Translations under genes and position numbers: made by a program
The notes under the pieces: generated by a model
The model's input: only the letters and a program-made list of their open reading frames with translations
Told to the model about the DNA's origin: nothing
Databases searched by the model: none
DNA from: Thiohalorhabdus sp. Cl-TMA
GTDB lineage: Bacteria > Pseudomonadota > Gammaproteobacteria > Thiohalorhabdales > Thiohalorhabdaceae
Assembly: GCF_041821045.1 (NCBI RefSeq)
Contig: NZ_JBGUAW010000007.1
Coordinates: 62,001-126,000 of the forward strand
Direction of reading: 5' to 3'
DNA length: 64,000 nucleotides
In this document: positions 7,205-38,543 of the stretch, piece after piece
How the letters are laid out: the number at the start of each line of letters is the position of its first letter
Numbering within the stretch: the stretch's first letter is position 1

Positions 7205-7351
7205 TCCTGCCTCTTTCCGGTCGATGCGCGCCAGGGGGCATCCTAGCACGCGGTCCGCGGCCCGCGCCCATTCCGGTGGCCCGCCGCGGCACACTCTGGT
7301 AAGGGTTAAAAAAACTGCGGAGAACCCGGGGCCGCAAAGGGGGGATCGACC

Positions 7352-8905
7352 ATGGCCATCCGAGCACCGTACCTGCCCATTGTCTACGTGCGGGGCTATG
7401 CCGCCCGCATGGACGAGATCGAGGACACCGTCGCCACGCCCTACATGGGCTTCAACCTGGGCGCCACCAAGCTGCGCCAGGACCACGACGGCAAGCCTCT
7501 GCGCTGGATCTTCGAATCGCCCCTGATCCGGCTCATGAAGGATCACGGCTATATGGATGCCTACGCCGACGGCGACTTCCTCTCGGAGCCGGGCGGCGCG
7601 CCGGTCCGGAGCGTGTGGATCTTCCGCTACTACGAGCCGGTTTCCGAGTCCCTCGGGGAAGGAGACCGCCGCACCCTGCCGGAGCTCGCGGCCCATCTAA
7701 GGCGATTCCTGCTCCATACGGTGCGACCGGCGGTCTGCGGCGACGACCCGGACCTCCTGGCCGATTTCCGGGTCCACCTGGTGGCCCACTCCATGGGTGG
7801 ACTGCTCTGCCGCACCTACCTCCAGAACCTCTGCCACAAGGGAACGGGGGACCCGCAACGGGACGAGGCCCTGGAGCTGCCCGGCGATCCGCTGGTGGAG
7901 CGCGTCTTCACCTACGCCACGCCCCACAGCGGCATCGACCTGGAGGGGGTCAATGTTCCGGATCTGGGGACCTGGGACAAATGGCACATCCGCAGCTTCA
8001 ACCGGGACGTGATGCGGGACTATCTCGATCTCCCTGGCGGAACCGAACGGCTGGACTCCCTGAACGGGCGGTTCCCGCCGGAGCGATTCTTCTGCCTGGT
8101 GGGCACCAACTACAAGGATTACCGGGCCTTCCACGGCCTATCCGCACGGGCCACCGGCCCCATGTCCGACGGACTGGTCATGATCCGCAACGCCACCGTG
8201 CGGGATGCCCCGCGGGCCTTTGTCCACCGCAGCCACAGCGGCGACTACGGCATCGTCAATTCCGAGGAGGGCTACCAGAACCTGCGGCGTTTCCTGTTCG
8301 GCGAGGTGCGCGTGGATGCCCGGCTGCACGCCGAGGAGATCACCCTGCCCCGGCCGGTGCAGGAGAAGAAGGACGCCGGACACGCGGTGCGCGCCTCCTA
8401 CCACATCGATTCCGCCGTCAGCCTGCGAAACGCCACCTGCTTCCTGCACGAGCGCCGTTCGGAGCACGGTTCGGCGCTATTGAAGTCCTACGATGCCTGG
8501 GTGAAGGAGGGACGCCCCGCCTATCTGTTCTCCGGCTTTCTCATGCGCGCCGGGAAAGGCCGGGATCAGGGCGACACCGCCCTGGCCTTCGCCCTCCACG
8601 TGGCTGTGCGGGTTCCCGTCTACGAGGTGGACAACCGGTTCTGGCTGGATGGACACTTCGAGGGTGGACCGGTGCTTCAGGACACCGTGACGGTGCATGT
8701 CCGCCCGGACGGCCGCAAGACCACCATCGCCTATGGCTTGGCCTCCCGGGACGGCCTCGGCGAGGCCCGGCGGCGGGCGGGCGTGCAATGGGAGACGGAA
8801 CAAACGGCCCGGGTCCGTTTCCCCCTGGGATTCGCCGAGGACCAGCGACGGGTGAAACGGCCGGGATTCCGGGGCCATCTCGCCATTGACGTCCATGTCC
8901 GCTGA
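7352..8905 (+). CDS. lipase/PGAP1-like alpha/beta hydrolase
   Basis: A 517-residue protein beginning at an ATG preceded by a purine-rich AAAGGGGGG. The nucleophile elbow is AHSMGG with Ser at about residue 147, preceded by a hydrophobic strand (VHLVAHSMGG), as in triacylglycerol lipases and PGAP1-like esterases. After residue 310 the sequence loses hydrolase character and may be a beta-rich accessory domain (residues 320-510). No signal peptide is visible, so a cytoplasmic location is likely. Substrate is unknown. A short C4-loop-G4 hairpin at 8907-8919 with a T-rich tail may be a weak terminator. Confidence 0.7.
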   Translation: MAIRAPYLPIVYVRGYAARMDEIEDTVATPYMGFNLGATKLRQDHDGKPLRWIFESPLIRLMKDHGYMDAYADGDFLSEPGGAPVRSVWIFRYYEPVSESLGEGDRRTLPELAAHLRRFLLHTVRPAVCGDDPDLLADFRVHLVAHSMGGLLCRTYLQNLCHKGTGDPQRDEALELPGDPLVERVFTYATPHSGIDLEGVNVPDLGTWDKWHIRSFNRDVMRDYLDLPGGTERLDSLNGRFPPERFFCLVGTNYKDYRAFHGLSARATGPMSDGLVMIRNATVRDAPRAFVHRSHSGDYGIVNSEEGYQNLRRFLFGEVRVDARLHAEEITLPRPVQEKKDAGHAVRASYHIDSAVSLRNATCFLHERRSEHGSALLKSYDAWVKEGRPAYLFSGFLMRAGKGRDQGDTALAFALHVAVRVPVYEVDNRFWLDGHFEGGPVLQDTVTVHVRPDGRKTTIAYGLASRDGLGEARRRAGVQWETEQTARVRFPLGFAEDQRRVKRPGFRGHLAIDVHVR

Positions 8906-12310: not shown

Positions 12311-12949
12311 TCAGGCCTCTTCCTCCGTGGTGGTCCAGTCGGCGGCGATCAGCATCTGGACGAGCTCGGCGGTGGAGCCCGCCTCCATTTTCTCCATGAC
12401 CCGGCCCCGATGCACCTCGACGGTCTTGGGACTGAGGTCCAGCTCCCGGGCAATCGCCTTGTTGGAATAGCCCTGCACCACCCGCTTGGCCACCTGGCTC
12501 TCCCGGGTGGTCAGCCTTCCGGCCCGGCGGCGCAGCTCCTCCCGGCGGCTGCCCAGCTCGCGCCGCTGTTGATCCTGCTCGATCGCCTTCTGGACGGTCT
12601 CGATCAAGTACTGGGCATTGTACGGCTTCTCGATGAAATCGAGGGCGCCGCCCTTCATGGCCCGCACGGCGGCCGGAACGTCGGCGTGGCCCGTGAGGAT
12701 GATGACCGGAATCTCCAGCCCCTGATCACGGAGCCATTCCTGCAGCTCCAGGCCACTCACGCCCGGCATCCGAATGTCCAGCAGGACCACGCCCGGCTGC
12801 TCCGGCTTCAGGCCTTCCAGGAATTCCTGGGCATCCGCGTAGACCTCCACCTTGTGGTTCACGGATTCCAGCAGCCATCGGATCGAATCCCGCATTCCCG
12901 CGTCATCGTCAACGACGAAGACGGTTGGTGTCTCCTTGTCCTGGCCCAT
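12311..12949 (-). CDS. FixJ/NarL-type response regulator
   Basis: A 212-residue two-domain regulator. The receiver (residues 8-122) has the acidic pair DDD, the phospho-acceptor Asp in LLDIRMPG, Thr in ILTGH and Lys in EKPYN. The C-terminal LuxR-type helix-turn-helix is at about 145-200 (LTTRESQVAKRVVQGYSNKAIARELDLSP). Its start overlaps the 3' end of the kinase by 41 bases, so the two are translated together and are almost certainly partners. The combination of PAS sensor kinase and FixJ-like regulator is typical of redox, oxygen or aromatic-compound sensing. Confidence 0.92.
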   Translation of the reverse strand: MGQDKETPTVFVVDDDAGMRDSIRWLLESVNHKVEVYADAQEFLEGLKPEQPGVVLLDIRMPGVSGLELQEWLRDQGLEIPVIILTGHADVPAAVRAMKGGALDFIEKPYNAQYLIETVQKAIEQDQQRRELGSRREELRRRAGRLTTRESQVAKRVVQGYSNKAIARELDLSPKTVEVHRGRVMEKMEAGSTAELVQMLIAADWTTTEEEA

Positions 12950-15092
12950 CGGGACCCTCTTCGCAGTTTTTCTGTTCTTGGCAAACAGGCAGTGTCAGAT
13001 GAAAAGTGGTTCCGGGCTCGGGGCTATTGGGCGCTGCCCAAAAGTACCCATTATGGGACTCCACAATGGACCGGCAAATGGAGATCCCCAATCCCATCCC
13101 CCCCGATTTGGTGGTAAAAAGCGGCTGGACCAAGTCCTCCTGAAGATCCTGGGGCAGTCCTCTGCCCTGGTCCGCCACCTGAACCTCCACCATTTGATCA
13201 GAATGGCGCCTGGTGCGCACGGTTACCACGCCTTGCTCTTCCCCCTCCTCTTCCGCCGCTTCCATGGCATCCACGGCGTTCTGGATCAAGTTGCTGAAGC
13301 ACTCCTGCAGGAGGATGGGGTCCGCTTTCACATGCGGCAGGCCGGGATCCAGGTCCAGGTCCAGGCGGAAGGAATGCATCCCGTCCTGCAAATGATCGGG
13401 TGTCAGCCTCCGGATCAGCTGATTGAGCTCCGTGGGGCGGGCTTTGGGCTCCCCGCTGCGCAGGAAATGCCGCACCCCCCATACAATCTCTCCGGCCTGG
13501 CGGACATAGTCCAGAATCTGCTCCAGGCCATACTGGATACTACCTGCCTCATCCTGGCTTTCCAGCCGCTGCAAGGCCCCCTGGGCGAAATTCATGGCCG
13601 TGGCCAAGGGCTGGTTCAGCTGATGGGCAAGTACCGAGCCCAGCTCTCCCAGGGTAACCAGACGCCGGGTGCGCTCCAATTCGGCCTGCTGACTCTTGAA
13701 TTGACTAAGGTCATGGGCCATTACCGAGAAACGCTCGACCTGACCGGCATCGTCCTTGTGCGCCACCGCCACCATGGCGACCGGGATGTCCCGTCCCTTT
13801 GCGTGGCGAAGCGTCATCTCCCCCATCCAGAGCCCGGCCTTCCGGGCTTCCGGGAACACCTCCTGCTGCAGACGCTCCGCGGAAGCGGGGGCCAGGAAAT
13901 CCCCTAAGAGCGCCCTGTCAGATTCGCAGCCCGGCGACCGCCCTACCATCCGGAAGGCCCCGGGGTTGGCGTACAGGATTTCCCCAAGGGAATCTGCGAT
14001 GGTTACCGCATCCGGGGTGGCATTTAGGAGCTCCACGAGGCGGTCCCGCTCCCGCTCTGCCTGGTACTGGGCCTGCCGCGCCCGGAAGGACACCATGGCA
14101 TTCGCCGTTTCGTCGGCCAAGCGGCAGAGGAGGTTGAGCTCGTAGGCATCGAAGGCCTCCGCCTCATCGGCGTATATGCACAGCACGCCGAGGACCCGGT
14201 CCTCGTCCCGCAGCGGCACGGCGAGCACGGACTGGAAGCCCCGGCCCGCCGCCTGCTCTCCCCAGAGGGCGAACTGGGGCGTCAGGGCCACATTGGCCAC
14301 CAGGGCGGGCTTGCCCGTCTCCAGGGCCTGACCGAAGGGTCCCCGACCGTGGGGCAGGAAGCCCCAGGCGATGGGGTCCTGGATCCGTTCCAGGCAGCCG
14401 TCCAGATCCGCCGAGGCGAGCACCCGTATGCCCTGCTCGTCCATTCGCGCGGGCTCGCCGATCCAGGCCAGGGCATAGCCGGCGCCGCGCACCAGGAAGT
14501 GGCAGATCTCCTGGAGCAGGGTGTGCTCGTCGGGTGCCCAGCGCATGGCCTGGTTGGCCGCGTTGAGGGCCCGCAGCGCCCGGTCGGCGCGATGCTGCAG
14601 CTGCTCCGCCTCCCGCTTGCGGGAGATATCCCACCCCGTGAGCAGCGCCAGCTCTTGACCCCCCGGACGAGCCCGGCTTATGGCCCCTTCCAAGGCCACG
14701 GTGGCATCGCGTCCGTCCCCGGGCTTCAGGTGCACCTCCAGACTGGCCCGGCCGATGCCGGCGAAGAGCTCGCCGAGGAACCCCTCCAGCTCGGGCTTCT
14801 CCGAGCCCAGCAGGAAATCCTGCAGGGACCGGCCGAGGAGCTGCTCCCGGTTCCGGTCCAGCAGGTCGCAGCCGGCCCGGTTGACGGAGTACACCTTTCC
14901 CGTCCGGTCACAGGTGAAATAGGCCACCGGCGCGGACTCGTAGAAATCCGCGTAGAGCTCCACGAGGGCTTCCGGACCGTGTACCGAATGACCGCCCTCG
15001 GCCTCGTCCTCCTCCGGCTTCCGCAGGGCGGGCACTGGTGGCCCATTCACGGGGATCGTATTCCCTTCGCTCTCGTCCAGCCGATTCGTCAT
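12909..15092 (-). CDS. soluble PAS-GAF-PAS sensor histidine kinase (FixL/TodS-like)
   Basis: A 727-residue protein from the ATG at 15092, with GGGAGGG nine bases upstream. Domain order: PAS (about 45-165), GAF (about 190-345), PAS (about 365-490), dimerisation helix with the phospho-acceptor His in LAHQLNQPLATA (about 515), and an ATPase domain with N-box NLIQNAVDAME, G1 DQGRGLP and G2 GGMGLGI. No transmembrane segment, so it senses a cytoplasmic signal. The HQLNQPL box is typical of the FixL/DctB-like group. Haem binding by a PAS domain cannot be judged from sequence alone. It overlaps the regulator gene and is divergent from the FNR operon. Confidence 0.9.
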   Translation of the reverse strand: MTNRLDESEGNTIPVNGPPVPALRKPEEDEAEGGHSVHGPEALVELYADFYESAPVAYFTCDRTGKVYSVNRAGCDLLDRNREQLLGRSLQDFLLGSEKPELEGFLGELFAGIGRASLEVHLKPGDGRDATVALEGAISRARPGGQELALLTGWDISRKREAEQLQHRADRALRALNAANQAMRWAPDEHTLLQEICHFLVRGAGYALAWIGEPARMDEQGIRVLASADLDGCLERIQDPIAWGFLPHGRGPFGQALETGKPALVANVALTPQFALWGEQAAGRGFQSVLAVPLRDEDRVLGVLCIYADEAEAFDAYELNLLCRLADETANAMVSFRARQAQYQAERERDRLVELLNATPDAVTIADSLGEILYANPGAFRMVGRSPGCESDRALLGDFLAPASAERLQQEVFPEARKAGLWMGEMTLRHAKGRDIPVAMVAVAHKDDAGQVERFSVMAHDLSQFKSQQAELERTRRLVTLGELGSVLAHQLNQPLATAMNFAQGALQRLESQDEAGSIQYGLEQILDYVRQAGEIVWGVRHFLRSGEPKARPTELNQLIRRLTPDHLQDGMHSFRLDLDLDPGLPHVKADPILLQECFSNLIQNAVDAMEAAEEEGEEQGVVTVRTRRHSDQMVEVQVADQGRGLPQDLQEDLVQPLFTTKSGGMGLGISICRSIVESHNGYFWAAPNSPEPGTTFHLTLPVCQEQKNCEEGPDGPGQGDTNRLRR

Positions 15093-15693
15093 GGCGCGCC
15101 CTCCCGTGTCCTCCGAGCTTGGTCTCCGGGGAACCGGAAGGCCTCCGTTCGCGCGCCAGTGGGCGCGCCCTCCGGACACCTACGCCGCTCGGATTGGGTC
15201 CCCCTTTGCTTGCACGGTCTTCCCCTCTCCCCACCGGATATAAGGACAAACATCCAGAGGGTTAAGGATCATCCGAAATTCCACCGTAAACGGATAAATA
15301 TCTCCGCGCCTACCCTGTTTCCGGCGAGCGTCCTGCAGCGTCCTTTTCGTACTCCTTTCCTGACCAGCCTTAAAACAATATTTACCCATCCGCAGAACCC
15401 CGGCATTACAGTCTCCAGCGATACTGAACGGCTCTAAGTTCTTTTATTGCCGATCTTTTAGATTAGGGAAATCCCCTAAATATTTAAGCCAACATCCCAA
15501 TTGGACCCCAACTCCCTGTGTCCTAAAAAGAACGCTACCGAGCGGGCAGCAATAGCAACCCGCCGATTTTCTGAATATCCGAGCCGGATGCGGAGTGGAT
15601 GCCTCCGGATCCGGCAGGCCCCCGGAACCGCCAGCGGTTCCGGGCAGCCCTTCCGGAGCCGCGGCTCCGGATGCAAGGGGGGGAGCCCGAAAC
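15093..15693. other. AT-rich divergent intergenic region
   Basis: Six hundred bases between the sensor kinase (minus) and the DUF1722/FNR operon (plus), clearly richer in A+T than the surroundings, especially 15230-15560. No believable coding frame. It should hold both divergent promoters, and it contains the palindromic box listed separately. Confidence 0.6.
15463..15479. promoter_or_regulatory. palindromic box, candidate FixJ-like regulator site
   Basis: TTAGGGAAATCCCCTAA is an interrupted palindrome (six-base arms TTAGGG and CCCTAA plus an inner A:T pair). It lies about 215 bases before the DUF1722 start. On the minus strand it contains GATTTCCCTAA, and closely related boxes (AATTTCCCTA and AATTTCCCT) occur at 38884 and 39516 near the second FixJ-like regulator. 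Binding is inferred from position and symmetry only. Confidence 0.45.
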
Positions 15694-16458
15694 ATGAGCA
15701 TCAACACGGTACGCATCGGGATCGACCAAGTGCAGGCGAGCGCAGTCGAACCGGGACGCAGACAGCCGCTGTGGGACGAGCTGGTGGGACCACTGTTCCC
15801 GGAAGGGGTGGAGCTGGTTCCGGTGAAGGAGATGGAAGCCATCAAACCGTACGGATACGGCCGAGGACGCGGGTCGGACCTGAACGGCATGGTCCGTCCG
15901 GGCGAGCGGGAGCTCTACGCCACGCTTCCCCAGATGCCGGTGACGTCGCTGGACGAGCTCCGGACACCGTCCGGGCGGCATGGCTTCCGTCAAAGGGTCC
16001 GGTCCTTCCGACGCTGGAAGGAGCTGGTCGCGGAGATGGACACCACCGCGGCGCTGCACACCTTCCACCGCGAGCACGAGCTGGCGGTCATGGCCCGGGA
16101 TCCCCGAGAGCACGCCCGCCTGTCCGCCCTGGTCGCGGAAGCCGATGACGGGGCCTACCCCGTTGAGCAGCTGACCCGCTCCTATCTGGAGCGCCACATG
16201 GGGGCGCTGGGTCGCCCGGCGTGCTCCCAGGGTATTGGAGCCGTCCTGTGCACGGTCTGGGACCGGCTCTCCCATTGGATGACGAAACAGGAGCAACGGG
16301 AGCTCGGCCATGAGATCTGGGCCTTCATGCGCGGACGTATCCCGCTGGAAAGCGTGCTGTATCGCGCCGAAGCCCTGCTGATTCGCTACCACCAATCCGA
16401 CCTGGCCGCTCGGCTGCGCGATCAGCTTCGCGACCCGGACGGCACCGATCTCGACTGA
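15694..16458 (+). CDS. DUF1722 (YbgA C-terminal type) protein
   Basis: A 254-residue protein; the ATG at 15694 follows a purine-rich AGGGGGGGAG. Residues 125-245 match the DUF1722 pattern: a FHREHELAVMA helix, then ARLSALVAEAD, a conserved LSHWMTKQEQRELG segment and the RGRIPLESVLYRAEALLIRYH segment. In YbgA-type proteins this domain is often fused behind DUF523; here it stands alone with a 110-residue N-terminal region of no recognised family. Molecular function unknown. It is the first gene of a five-gene same-strand run with small gaps that includes FNR, suggesting a role in anaerobic or redox adaptation. Confidence 0.75.
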   Translation: MSINTVRIGIDQVQASAVEPGRRQPLWDELVGPLFPEGVELVPVKEMEAIKPYGYGRGRGSDLNGMVRPGERELYATLPQMPVTSLDELRTPSGRHGFRQRVRSFRRWKELVAEMDTTAALHTFHREHELAVMARDPREHARLSALVAEADDGAYPVEQLTRSYLERHMGALGRPACSQGIGAVLCTVWDRLSHWMTKQEQRELGHEIWAFMRGRIPLESVLYRAEALLIRYHQSDLAARLRDQLRDPDGTDLD

Positions 16459-16480
16459 ACAACCTCGAAGGGGGTCAAAA

Positions 16481-16774
16481 GTGAGCTTTAACTTCTCGAC
16501 GCGCGGACGGAAGAACCTGGGCTACCTGGTCAAGGATCGCGAGTTCATCTCGGTGGTCAATTTCCGGCTCGACCAGGAAGAGGACGAGTGGGGACGGCCC
16601 CGGGTCTACGGGGATATGGAGCTCAAGGGCAAGAACCACAAGCCCACCGACTACGAGGGTCCCCTGACCATCCACTCCAACCAGGGGTACAGCCTCAATC
16701 TGGAGATCACGCGCTACCTGGCCAAGGGCCGGTACGCCTTCCAGGTCAAACGGGCCAAGCAGCCCACCTCCTGA
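16481..16774 (+). CDS. small conserved-looking protein, unknown function
   Basis: 97 residues starting at a GTG with AAGGGGG eight bases upstream, 22 bases after the DUF1722 gene. The sequence is charged and beta-rich in appearance, with alternating hydrophobic/charged stretches (EFISVVNFRLDQEEDEW, RVYGDMELKG) and no cysteines or membrane segment. I do not recognise a family. Good ribosome site, tight operon spacing and normal codon use support a real gene. Confidence 0.65.
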   Translation: MSFNFSTRGRKNLGYLVKDREFISVVNFRLDQEEDEWGRPRVYGDMELKGKNHKPTDYEGPLTIHSNQGYSLNLEITRYLAKGRYAFQVKRAKQPTS

Positions 16775-16850
16775 GGGAGGAGCTTGTTCGGCGCCGGCTC
16801 CGCGCCCGCGGGGCCGGCCTTTCATCGAATACCCACTCAGGAGGCCGGAC

Positions 16851-17201
16851 ATGGCGACCGTAGAGAATCATCCCGCCCTGCCCGAGCAGGTGCTGCTGTA
16901 CCACAACAGCATTCCCGTGGCCATTTGCTCCACGAAGCTGTTCACCCACGACAGTCTCGAGCTCTATTGCGGGCCCTTGCGCTATGAGCGCAACACCGAC
17001 CTGGAGGTGGAGGTGCAATTCGATCCGGGCCAGCCGGAGAGTCGGTTCCGCCTGCCCATGCGGGTAGTGCGCTGCAACAAGAACCACCTGGTGCTCTGCT
17101 ACGAGTCCATCCCGGAGGAAGCGGAGGCTTACCTCCAGGACCGGGAAGACATGGCGGTGACGGCCTATGCCGATCCCGCCCCCTCCCATTACGCGCACTG
17201 A
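16851..17201 (+). CDS. small protein, possibly PilZ-like beta-barrel
   Basis: 116 residues from an ATG with GGAGG upstream, in the same operon, 12 bases before fnr. The middle (LEVEVQFDPGQPESRFRLPMRVVRCNKNHLVLCYESIP) has the strand pattern of PilZ-like folds, but the RxxxR and D/NxSxxG c-di-GMP signatures are not evident, so this is only a shape-level suggestion. Function unknown. Confidence 0.6.
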   Translation: MATVENHPALPEQVLLYHNSIPVAICSTKLFTHDSLELYCGPLRYERNTDLEVEVQFDPGQPESRFRLPMRVVRCNKNHLVLCYESIPEEAEAYLQDREDMAVTAYADPAPSHYAH

Positions 17202-17213
17202 GGCTAGCCCGCC

Positions 17214-17945
17214 ATGACGGCACAAAGGCGTCCCCGAACGGCCACCGTCGAGTCGCTAGGGGCAGAATGCGACACCTGTAGCAACCGGACCGCCTGCCTG
17301 GCGGGACATCTGGAGGACAGCGACCGCCGGGCCCTGGATGCCCGGATCATGCGCGGTCGCCCCCTGGGCAAGGGGGAGGATGCCTTCGAGCAGAATGATG
17401 CCTTCGAGTACCTGTACCTGCTGCGCTCCGGACTCATGGAGACCTTCCATACCGACTCCAAGGGGCAGGCCACCATTACCGGCTTCCACCTGCCGGGGGA
17501 CATCCTGGGCCTGGACGCCATCGCCCAGGGAAGGCACACGGAGACCGCGCGCGCCCTGGACACCACCAGCATTTGCGCGCTGCCCTTCACCGCGGCCCTT
17601 TCCGGGCGCACCGGCGGCCTGTACGCCGAGCTCCTGCGCGCCATGAGCCAACGGATCGCCCGGAACGGTACCCGGCACCGCCTGTTCAGCCGGCGCTCCG
17701 CTTTGTACCGGATCGCCCACTTCCTGGCCGAGCTGCATACCCGCACCCCGAGCTCTTCGGCGTCGGCCGCCACCTTCCGCATCCCCAAGCGGGACCTGGC
17801 CAATTTCCTCGGCCTGGCGCCGGAAACCCTGAGCCGCGGTCTGGCCCGTCTCCACGAGCTGGAGCTGGTGGAGGTCTCCAAACGGGGCTTCAAGGTCCGG
17901 GACGCAGAGGGTCTGGAGAACATGACCCGAGAGGAGCTGGAATGA
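17214..17945 (+). CDS. fnr: FNR-type oxygen-sensing transcription regulator
   Basis: A 243-residue Crp/Fnr-family protein. The N-terminal cysteines C19-x2-C22-x5-C28 and C121 (in TTSICALPF) match the four ligands of the oxygen-labile 4Fe-4S cluster of FNR. The cyclic-nucleotide-like fold covers residues 35-150 and a winged helix residues 165-235, with the recognition region in PKRDLANFLGLAPETLSRGLARL (E, SR as in FNR). It should activate anaerobic or microaerobic genes and repress aerobic ones. It sits fourth in the DUF1722-CBS operon and overlaps the CBS gene by four bases. Divergence from a FixLJ-like pair suggests a FixLJ-to-FixK style cascade. Confidence 0.93.
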   Translation: MTAQRRPRTATVESLGAECDTCSNRTACLAGHLEDSDRRALDARIMRGRPLGKGEDAFEQNDAFEYLYLLRSGLMETFHTDSKGQATITGFHLPGDILGLDAIAQGRHTETARALDTTSICALPFTAALSGRTGGLYAELLRAMSQRIARNGTRHRLFSRRSALYRIAHFLAELHTRTPSSSASAATFRIPKRDLANFLGLAPETLSRGLARLHELELVEVSKRGFKVRDAEGLENMTREELE

Positions 17946-18430
17946 GCGCCGAGACCCGGTCCGTCATGCCGCCCCAGGGGATCGGCGAGTACTGCAAGCG
18001 GGAAGTAGTGATCACTCGGCGCGAGCGCACCATCCGCGATGCCGCCCGGCTCATGCGTAACCACCACGTGGGCGATCTGGTGGTAGTGGAAGAGTACGAG
18101 GGCGAGACCATCCCGGTGGGCATGATCACCGACCGCGACCTGGTGGTGGAGGTTCTGGCCGAAGAGGTGGGCATGGACGAGGTCACCGTGGGCGACGTCA
18201 TGAGCGCCGAACCGGCCCTGGCCCGCGAGGAGGACGATCTCTGGGAAACGCTGATGCGCATGCAGAGCTGGGGCGTCCGCCGCTTGCCGGTGGTCGATGC
18301 CGCCGGCGTGCTGCAGGGCATCATCACCGTCGATGACCTCCTGGAGCTCTGCACCGAATACCTGCACGACCTGGTGAAGGTGGTCACCCGCGAGCAGGAG
18401 CGGGAGCTGGCGCGCCGCGGCGCCAGATGA
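17942..18430 (+). CDS. tandem CBS-domain protein
   Basis: 162 residues, with the ATG overlapping the fnr stop (ATGA). Two CBS motifs cover residues 14-75 and 82-145, each ending in the usual GMITDRDLV or GIITVDDLLE segment. Stand-alone CBS pairs bind adenosine ligands and usually report energy state. Translational coupling to FNR suggests a shared redox/energy response. The last gene of the operon, followed by a strong terminator. Confidence 0.88.
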   Translation: MSAETRSVMPPQGIGEYCKREVVITRRERTIRDAARLMRNHHVGDLVVVEEYEGETIPVGMITDRDLVVEVLAEEVGMDEVTVGDVMSAEPALAREEDDLWETLMRMQSWGVRRLPVVDAAGVLQGIITVDDLLELCTEYLHDLVKVVTREQERELARRGAR

Positions 18431-18703: not shown

Positions 18704-18982
18704 TTACCGGGAGCGCGATTGCCAGCGGCTGAGGCGGCCCACCACCCCTCGGGCGCTGTGCGGATTGGGCGCGGTCTCGGCCAGCACCGCCAGGCGGCGC
18801 AGATGGGCCTTGGCCCGAGATGCCCAGGCGGAGCGCTCGCGGAGTGCCTCCTCGGGGGATCCGTAGGTGGCCGCCCCCTCCAGGTTGCGGTCGATGACAT
18901 CCCGCTTCTTGAGCGCGCTGCGCGCCTCGCGGAGGTGCTTCACCCACCTGCCGTGATCCCACTGCGTGTCCTTCCGGGTCAT
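18704..18982 (-). CDS. small basic helical protein, unknown
   Basis: 92 residues, many Arg/Lys and Ala, predicted mostly helical (WVKHLREARSALKKRDVIDRN). The ATG at 18982 is preceded by a GGGGGGAAG purine block, which supports translation. I recognise no family. It lies alone between two terminators, so it has its own transcription unit if real; the arginine-rich composition leaves some risk of a spurious frame. Confidence 0.45.
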   Translation of the reverse strand: MTRKDTQWDHGRWVKHLREARSALKKRDVIDRNLEGAATYGSPEEALRERSAWASRAKAHLRRLAVLAETAPNPHSARGVVGRLSRWQSRSR

Positions 18983-19094
18983 TCTTCCCCCCTCATCGGA
19001 TAAGCATTCATACCCTTTTAGACGCGCGCCGGCCCGGGGCGTGCGCGGGCCCGAACCGCCACCTTGATCGGCATCAAATGATAATCACCCACAC

Positions 19095-37865: not shown

Positions 37866-38543
37866 CTAGTCGTCCGAATCGGGCATAGCGAATACCTGAT
37901 CAAGAATCGTTTCGGAGGCAGTATCCATGTTGGCCCCGAGGAGCATGACCATCTTGGTCAGCTCCGCCGGGGACCGGGCCTCCATTTTCCTGAGCAGGTT
38001 CGAGCGGTGGACATCGACGGTCTTATTGGACATGTTCAGCTTCCAGGCAATGGTCTTGGTGGGCAATCCGTCACAGAGGAGCCGGGCCACCTCGCTTTCC
38101 CGGGCCGTCAAAGTGCTCAACCGTTCCTGAACAGCCCTCCGTTGCTGCCGAGCTTGCTGGGCCTCCAGATTGGACTGCAAGGCCCTTTGCACCACTTCAA
38201 TGAGCTCTTGGTCGTTGCAGTTCTTCCCCAGAAAGTCGGCCGCCCCGTTCTTTAAGGCCCGGCGAGCCAGGTCATGGTCCCCGTGGCCGGTCAAGAAGAT
38301 AACCGGCAGCTCGGGATAGTTCTCCCGGACCCAGCCGAACAGCTCGAATCCGCTTATCTGGGGCATCCGAATATCCAGGAGCAAACAGCCGTTCCCCCCG
38401 GCATAATTGTCCATGAATGCCTGGGCCGAGGAGAAAGTTTCGGTTTGGATCCCCACCGAATCAAGCAGCACATCGAGGGCCTTACACACCCCTTCATCAT
38501 CATCCACGATGAAAACGCAGTTCTCGCTGGTCTGTGGCTCCAA
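37866..38543 (-). CDS. FixJ/NarL-type response regulator with altered receiver motif
   Basis: 225 residues, TTG start with GGGAGC upstream. Receiver: DDDEG acidic pair, phospho-acceptor in LLDIRMPQ, Thr in FLTGHGD, Lys in FLGKNCNDQEL. The usual E-K-P-(F/Y) segment reads G-K-N-C, so the conserved cis-proline is lost. LuxR-type helix-turn-helix near 155-205 (LTARESEVARLLCDGLPTKTIAWKLNMSNKTVDVHRSNLL). No kinase adjoins it; the orphan PAS kinase 2.8 kb away is the nearest candidate. Confidence 0.9.
   Translation of the reverse strand: MEPQTSENCVFIVDDDEGVCKALDVLLDSVGIQTETFSSAQAFMDNYAGGNGCLLLDIRMPQISGFELFGWVRENYPELPVIFLTGHGDHDLARRALKNGAADFLGKNCNDQELIEVVQRALQSNLEAQQARQQRRAVQERLSTLTARESEVARLLCDGLPTKTIAWKLNMSNKTVDVHRSNLLRKMEARSPAELTKMVMLLGANMDTASETILDQVFAMPDSDD

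Follow-up and report, generated by a model that had tools for sequence, protein, structure and literature searches.

A FixJ-type kinase-regulator pair facing an FNR-containing operon in Thiohalorhabdus: a variant of a known circuit, distinct from FixLJ-FixK

Does a FixJ-like two-component pair that faces an operon with an FNR-type gene amount to a FixLJ-FixK cascade, as an earlier note proposed for a locus of Thiohalorhabdus sp. Cl-TMA? Positions below refer to the window, the whole 64,000-nucleotide stretch that was analysed, unless another contig is named; its genome (G000) has 3.74 Mb, and G001 and G002 are the other two species of the genus. The pair lies on the minus strand, divergent from five co-directional genes on the plus strand (15694-18430), with a gap of 601 bp between them. 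The content ascribed earlier to this operon, namely a four-cysteine FNR, a CBS protein, a DUF1722 protein and two small unknowns, was recovered in full. The entire set is present in G001 in the same gene order, with identities of 96-97% for a 97-aa orphan protein, 95% for the regulator (58% in G002), 90% for the FNR, 85-86% for the CBS protein, 70% for both the kinase and a PilZ-like protein and 46-49% for the DUF1722 protein. The orphan and the FNR are therefore far better conserved than the DUF1722 protein.

The kinase gene (12909-15092, minus strand, ATG at 15092) shares 41 bp with the regulator gene, and its product has the order PAS-GAF-PAS-HisKA-HATPase_c. The description of this kinase as a soluble PAS/GAF protein stands, because the maximal Kyte-Doolittle value over 19-residue windows is only 0.97, too low for a membrane helix in any of them. 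FixL is the closest model of the kinase core in NCBIfam and also its closest relative by phmmer in the PDB, the NCBIfam resemblance being limited to the core (model positions 245-484 of 485). The haem-PAS signature H-x(2,3)-Y-[ILV]-x2-Y-x2-[TS]-G, known from FixL sequences and taken by us as the mark of a haem-binding FixL, is absent from the kinases of G000 and G001 and present in the control, the FixL of the gammaproteobacterium G027. On the missing signature a haem-FixL identity was rejected, and judged by this motif the kinase is not FixL.

The regulator (12311-12949, minus strand, 212 aa) combines a receiver with a LuxR-type helix-turn-helix (Pfam Response_reg, 104 bits; GerE, 73 bits). 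It scores 235.5 bits against the NCBIfam FixJ model (NF006900), under the equivalog cut-off of 255, which the FixJ of G027 exceeds as a control with 260.6 bits. The best solved relative is FixJ 5xso (E 3.3e-49), whose recognition helix reads SPRTIEVYRANVMTKM against SPKTVEVHRGRVMEKM in the regulator. The pair is related to the oxygen-sensing FixLJ yet distinct from it. G000 encodes three more close FixJ-like regulators with 44-49% identity to this one; the copy inside the window (37866-38543, minus strand, 44%) has a different recognition helix, SNKTVDVHRSNLLRKM.

The FNR-type protein (17214-17945, plus strand) carries C-x2-C-x5-C and a fourth cysteine (Cys19, 22, 28 and 121), and its recognition helix ETLSR agrees with the E-x2-SR pattern; the G001 copy is alike in these features. 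It reaches 149.5 bits against NCBIfam Fnr (NF008365), under the cut-off of 228, and is the second FNR of the genome, 43% identical to the other one at C7:23371. In a 15-row tree, in which row G036a was read short because of an in-frame stop, the two FNR groups stand next to each other, weakly supported (82/77), and the window branch is long (1.67). By its sequence, the window FNR is a diverged, fast-evolving second copy.

These features bear directly on the proposed cascade, in which haem-bound O2 would block the kinase and low O2 would release it, FixJ then turning on the FNR gene. The divergent layout, the FixJ-type box described below, the closeness of the kinase core to FixL, and the existence in G027 of a set with haem-signature FixL, FixJ and cysteine FNR would all suit such an oxygen cascade, but the haem-PAS signature found in the G027 FixL is missing here, the FixL model is covered in its core only, and the FNR retains its Fe-S cysteines, the lack of which marks FixK in the available part of PMC4999443. 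We consider this reading quite unlikely. The identity of the cascade fails on three tested defining features, that is the haem signature, the FixJ score and the FNR cysteines, and the FixLJ-FixK name is unsuitable and should not be used here. What survives of the proposal is its other half: control of the facing operon by the FixJ-type regulator is most likely, as indicated by a box of FixJ-type form that is conserved, at an unchanged distance from the candidate promoter, throughout the three species. In the way it would work, with a FixJ regulator placed over a CRP/FNR gene, the locus resembles FixLJ-FixK without being a member of it.

The palindromic box reported for the gap is there and is conserved in position. 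It reads TTAGGGAAATCCCCTAA (15463-15479), a perfect 6-bp inverted repeat with half-sites TTAGGG and CCCTAA around the 5-bp spacer AAATC; a FixJ-type palindrome thus stands ahead of the CRP/FNR operon, as it does in FixLJ-FixK, with a spacer of 5 instead of 4. The exact pattern TTAGGGN5CCCTAA occurs once in the window and in none of 100 dinucleotide shuffles, and TTAGGGN{4,5}CCCTAA has a single site in the whole G000 genome (0 for the reversed control). Across genomes this pattern matches in 6 of 37 and its reversed control in 9 of 37, so that about a quarter of genomes can be expected to hold an exact match. With two mismatches allowed, the window holds one box against 1.1 expected, and the looser TWAGGGN{4,5}CCCTWA, which 8 of 20,000 mononucleotide-shuffled gap sequences contain, is not rare in the genome (3 sites in G000 against 3 for the control; 5 against 3 in G001). 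The evidence for the box is its position and conservation, not its count. Counterparts lie at the orthologous place in G001 (TTAGGGTTTTCCCCTAA) and in G002 (TAAGGGCAAACCCTAA), the latter being the sole genome-wide TWAGGGN{4,5}CCCTWA match in that species; the spacer has 5 bp in the G000 and G001 operon boxes and 4 bp in the G002 box.

In form the box agrees with the published FixJ site of S. meliloti, given in the available part of PMC4999443 as TAAGTAATTTCCCTTA with a 4-bp spacer and a footprint from -69 to -44. Read on the other strand, it shares 9 of the last 10 and 3 of the first 6 bases with that site (reference from the same part of PMC4999443), and the agreement suggests a candidate operator for the operon. 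A literature search for the exact box strings found no paper. Downstream lies a candidate promoter (15498-15529, plus strand) comprising CAATTGG with the -35-like TTGGAC (15501-15506), a 17-bp spacer and the -10-like TAAAAA (15524-15529). We infer it from conserved spacing, because a sigma-70 consensus scan gave no match over the threshold: the succession of box, 18 bp, CAATTGG, 19 bp and TAAAAA/TATAAA is identically spaced in G000, G001 and G002. In the 70 bases past the box, 63 are identical between G000 and G001, and 28 between G000 and G002, where all offsets in the G002 gap give a mean of 18 and a maximum of 28.

The looser pattern also occurs ahead of the DUF2244-coxB operon (aa3 oxidase) in G000 (C1:142881) and G001, 260-290 bp from the start and with a 4-bp spacer. 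At 12 of 16 positions the G000 cox box is identical to the FixJ site of S. meliloti as cited in PMC4999443. The two cox boxes were not aligned in one column by MAFFT and have a similar gene distance (about 275 and 290 bp) and unlike flanks; upstream of DUF2244-coxB in G002 only one poor match with three mismatches was found, so that the cox box is absent there. The two sites suggest that the pair's regulator or a close paralogue may also act on the DUF2244-coxB operon. A further FixJ-type box was noted in G001 (C10:125273; L104:1501), where a GAF-PAS histidine kinase gene begins about 100 bp downstream.

Given the three paralogues and the related boxes at cox promoters unlinked to the pair, the box could be owned by another FixJ-like regulator of the genome, the adjacent pair controlling something else. 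This is improbable, since the box sits in the pair's own gap in all three species, and neither the fetched regions around two paralogues (L035, L036) nor the locus of the third, inside the window, yielded a box with at most one mismatch. Very unlikely is autoregulation of the kinase-regulator genes through the box, with the operon driven otherwise, for example by FNR: the divergent gap is 601 bp long and the kinase promoter is unmapped, but the conserved block flanks the box toward the operon and keeps the -35/-10 spacing, and TTGA-N6-TCAA is missing from the gap. FNR autoregulation from the gap was rejected on the same absence.

Which gene of the operon is the conserved target was decided by G002, for which an 82% complete genome was available. 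On one continuous 4,963-bp contig of this species, the beginning of the kinase gene is followed by the box-bearing gap and then by the orphan gene and an RND permease, with nothing else between. The single FNR match in G002 (search at E 1e-10; 34% identical) lies elsewhere in the genome, as does the only DUF1722 match; the search for the PilZ-like protein gave no match and that for the CBS protein none at E 1e-18. Because G002 keeps the pair, the box and the orphan at a locus from which the FNR is missing, the putative target conserved in all three species is the 97-aa orphan, not FNR. The four other operon genes were either gained around the orphan in the line of G000 and G001 or lost by G002.

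The orphan gene (16481-16774, plus strand, GTG start) is the most conserved of the operon and the only one that also follows the G002 box, where its product is 52% identical. The protein matches no Pfam family and gave matches in 4 of 369 genomes of the class (E 0.01), of which only the three from this genus are known to have it; the fourth match is a 55-residue stretch with two stops (E 0.004). Its model, built from only 2 sequences, is all-beta with a pLDDT of 76, and PilZ domains are frequent among the top VIA rows for it (Z from 8.3 down to about 6), whereas the best Foldseek E is 0.09, to proteases, and a PDB profile search gave only CtpB (E 0.05-0.1).

The first operon gene (15694-16458, plus strand) encodes a stand-alone DUF1722 protein of 254 aa (Pfam 32.8 bits, cut-off 22.5), with a start codon conserved in G001 and cysteines at positions 177 and 186 only. 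It has the DUF1722 domain in common with RudS and YbgA, as described in the available part of PMC11417400, and differs from them in having no detectable TudS domain and no cluster cysteines in its N-terminal part. A search for the TudS desulfidase domain detected only DUF1722, and the candidate identity as a RudS tRNA desulfidase was rejected with that domain and the three cluster cysteines missing.

The PilZ-like protein (16851-17201, plus strand, 116 aa) is degenerate, with 17.7 bits against the Pfam PilZ cut-off of 22.5 and a poor fold prediction (pLDDT 59). The DxSxxG motif of PilZ proteins is lost in this protein and kept in its paralogue, a clear PilZ protein (Pfam 53.4 bits) encoded about 3 kb from the FNR at C7:23371 in G000 and likewise placed in G001. 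A scan of genome contigs for the 116-aa protein yielded none out of 35 candidate stretches.

The two-CBS-domain protein (17942-18430, plus strand) starts at an ATG that overlaps the FNR stop (ATGA). Similar CBS proteins were found in 7 of 37 relatives (E 1e-18), four of which (G000, G001, G016 and G035) have a FixJ-like gene within about 5 kb; the stretches fetched from G012, G023 and G024 (9.4-13 kb) contain none near the CBS gene. The combination of a FixJ-like regulator with CBS thus recurs, in two families together with PilZ.

We favour, as probable, activation of the facing operon by this FixJ-family two-component system. The PAS-GAF-PAS kinase would sense a cytoplasmic, probably redox or respiratory, signal and phosphorylate the FixJ-like regulator, a dimer of which would bind 15463-15479 and recruit polymerase, thus activating rather than repressing; TTGGAC-17-TAAAAA predicts a transcription start about 65 bp downstream of this site. 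The conserved output would be the orphan, to which two of the three species add DUF1722, PilZ-like, second Fe-S FNR and CBS proteins. FNR synthesis would need the kinase signal, and the activity of FNR, if functional, an intact Fe-S cluster, which sets two conditions in series. Several points speak against FixJ activation: the operon spacer of 5 against the published 4, the three paralogues, the control-level frequency of the looser pattern, the absence of the cox box in G002, the incompleteness (82%) of the G002 genome despite the unbroken contig of its locus, the NCBIfam Fnr and FixJ cut-offs left unreached and the lack of a sigma-70 consensus promoter.

A wider proposal, tentative and on balance doubtful, is that the non-haem FixJ-family system runs a genus-private regulon, in which a duplicated, fast-evolving Fe-S FNR is produced along with two PilZ-fold proteins that no longer have the c-di-GMP motif. 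If true, one signal would govern gene expression and another protein activity, and respiration, both aerobic (aa3 oxidase) and anaerobic, would come under a two-key switch. The locus offers a candidate FixJ-type circuit that departs from the haem-FixL model of Alphaproteobacteria and lends itself to testing: an operator and a second target, the aa3 oxidase operon, are predicted, and the orphan protein is the output conserved best. From it one could learn if the form of FixJ boxes persists through changes of sensor and target, and if an Fe-S FNR can be subject to an additional layer of control.

One site of FNR type lies just past the operon: TTGATCGGCATCAA (19064-19077) is one of four exact sites in the genome and is conserved in G001 (L029:9512). 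The 92-aa ORF behind it (18704-18982, minus strand; 78% identical in G001, no Pfam match) is a possible FNR target. Other FNR-type sites in the genus lie near nitrate transporter-like (G001) and terminal-oxidase-like (G002) genes, as read from translations.

Compared with described systems, the locus is a variant of the known FixJ circuit and not a new kind of circuit. With FixLJ-FixK of Rhizobiales and Caulobacterales (PMC4999443) and its counterpart in Burkholderia dolosa (PMC9104464), in the available parts of both papers, it shares the FixJ-type regulator, the adjacent kinase with a FixL-type core and the palindromic site ahead of a CRP/FNR gene; it differs in a kinase that lacks the haem signature and has an added GAF domain, in a CRP/FNR protein that keeps the Fe-S cysteines, in an orphan gene as the conserved target and in the PilZ-like and DUF1722 partners. 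The thiosulfate sensor ThsSR, according to the available part of PMC5408782, likewise has a FixJ-like ThsR with kinase and target promoter adjacent, and its operator, which is 18 bp long and contains a 6-bp inverted repeat, resembles the FixJ site; sensor input, targets (thiosulfate reductase) and operator letters differ. In the G027 set (L038 4627-8886), too, a kinase, a FixJ and an FNR with cysteines are encoded within 5 kb, and the FNR ORF is preceded at about 70 bp by the palindrome ACTAGGTATTTTCCCCTAGT; this set differs in having a haem-signature FixL, a FixJ over the cut-off, a same-strand layout and an FNR only 26% identical to that of the window.

Clusters in G016 (C22) and G035 (C53) combine a FixJ-like gene with one for a CBS protein that has 46-53% identity to the window protein, but lack the FNR, the 97-aa orphan and a box of the window form, and have in their stead Hsp20 and VIT1 in G016 and a ribosome hibernation factor in G035. 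The G016 row (L119 4574-15828) contains kinases, a FixJ-like regulator, three PilZ-type genes (two above the Pfam cut-off, one with 21.9 against 22.5), Hsp20, CBS and VIT1, and looks like a stress cluster. That of G035 (L013 419-3268) runs FixL-like, FixJ-like, ribosome hibernation factor with a cold-shock domain and CBS protein. In two other families, FixJ-type palindromes lie directly behind fixJ-like genes (L032 of G036 at 7297; L033 of G016 at 8652), a periplasmic-binding-type sensor kinase is present and the genes that follow read as sox genes from their translations; these clusters are probably thiosulfate-type circuits with the same box.
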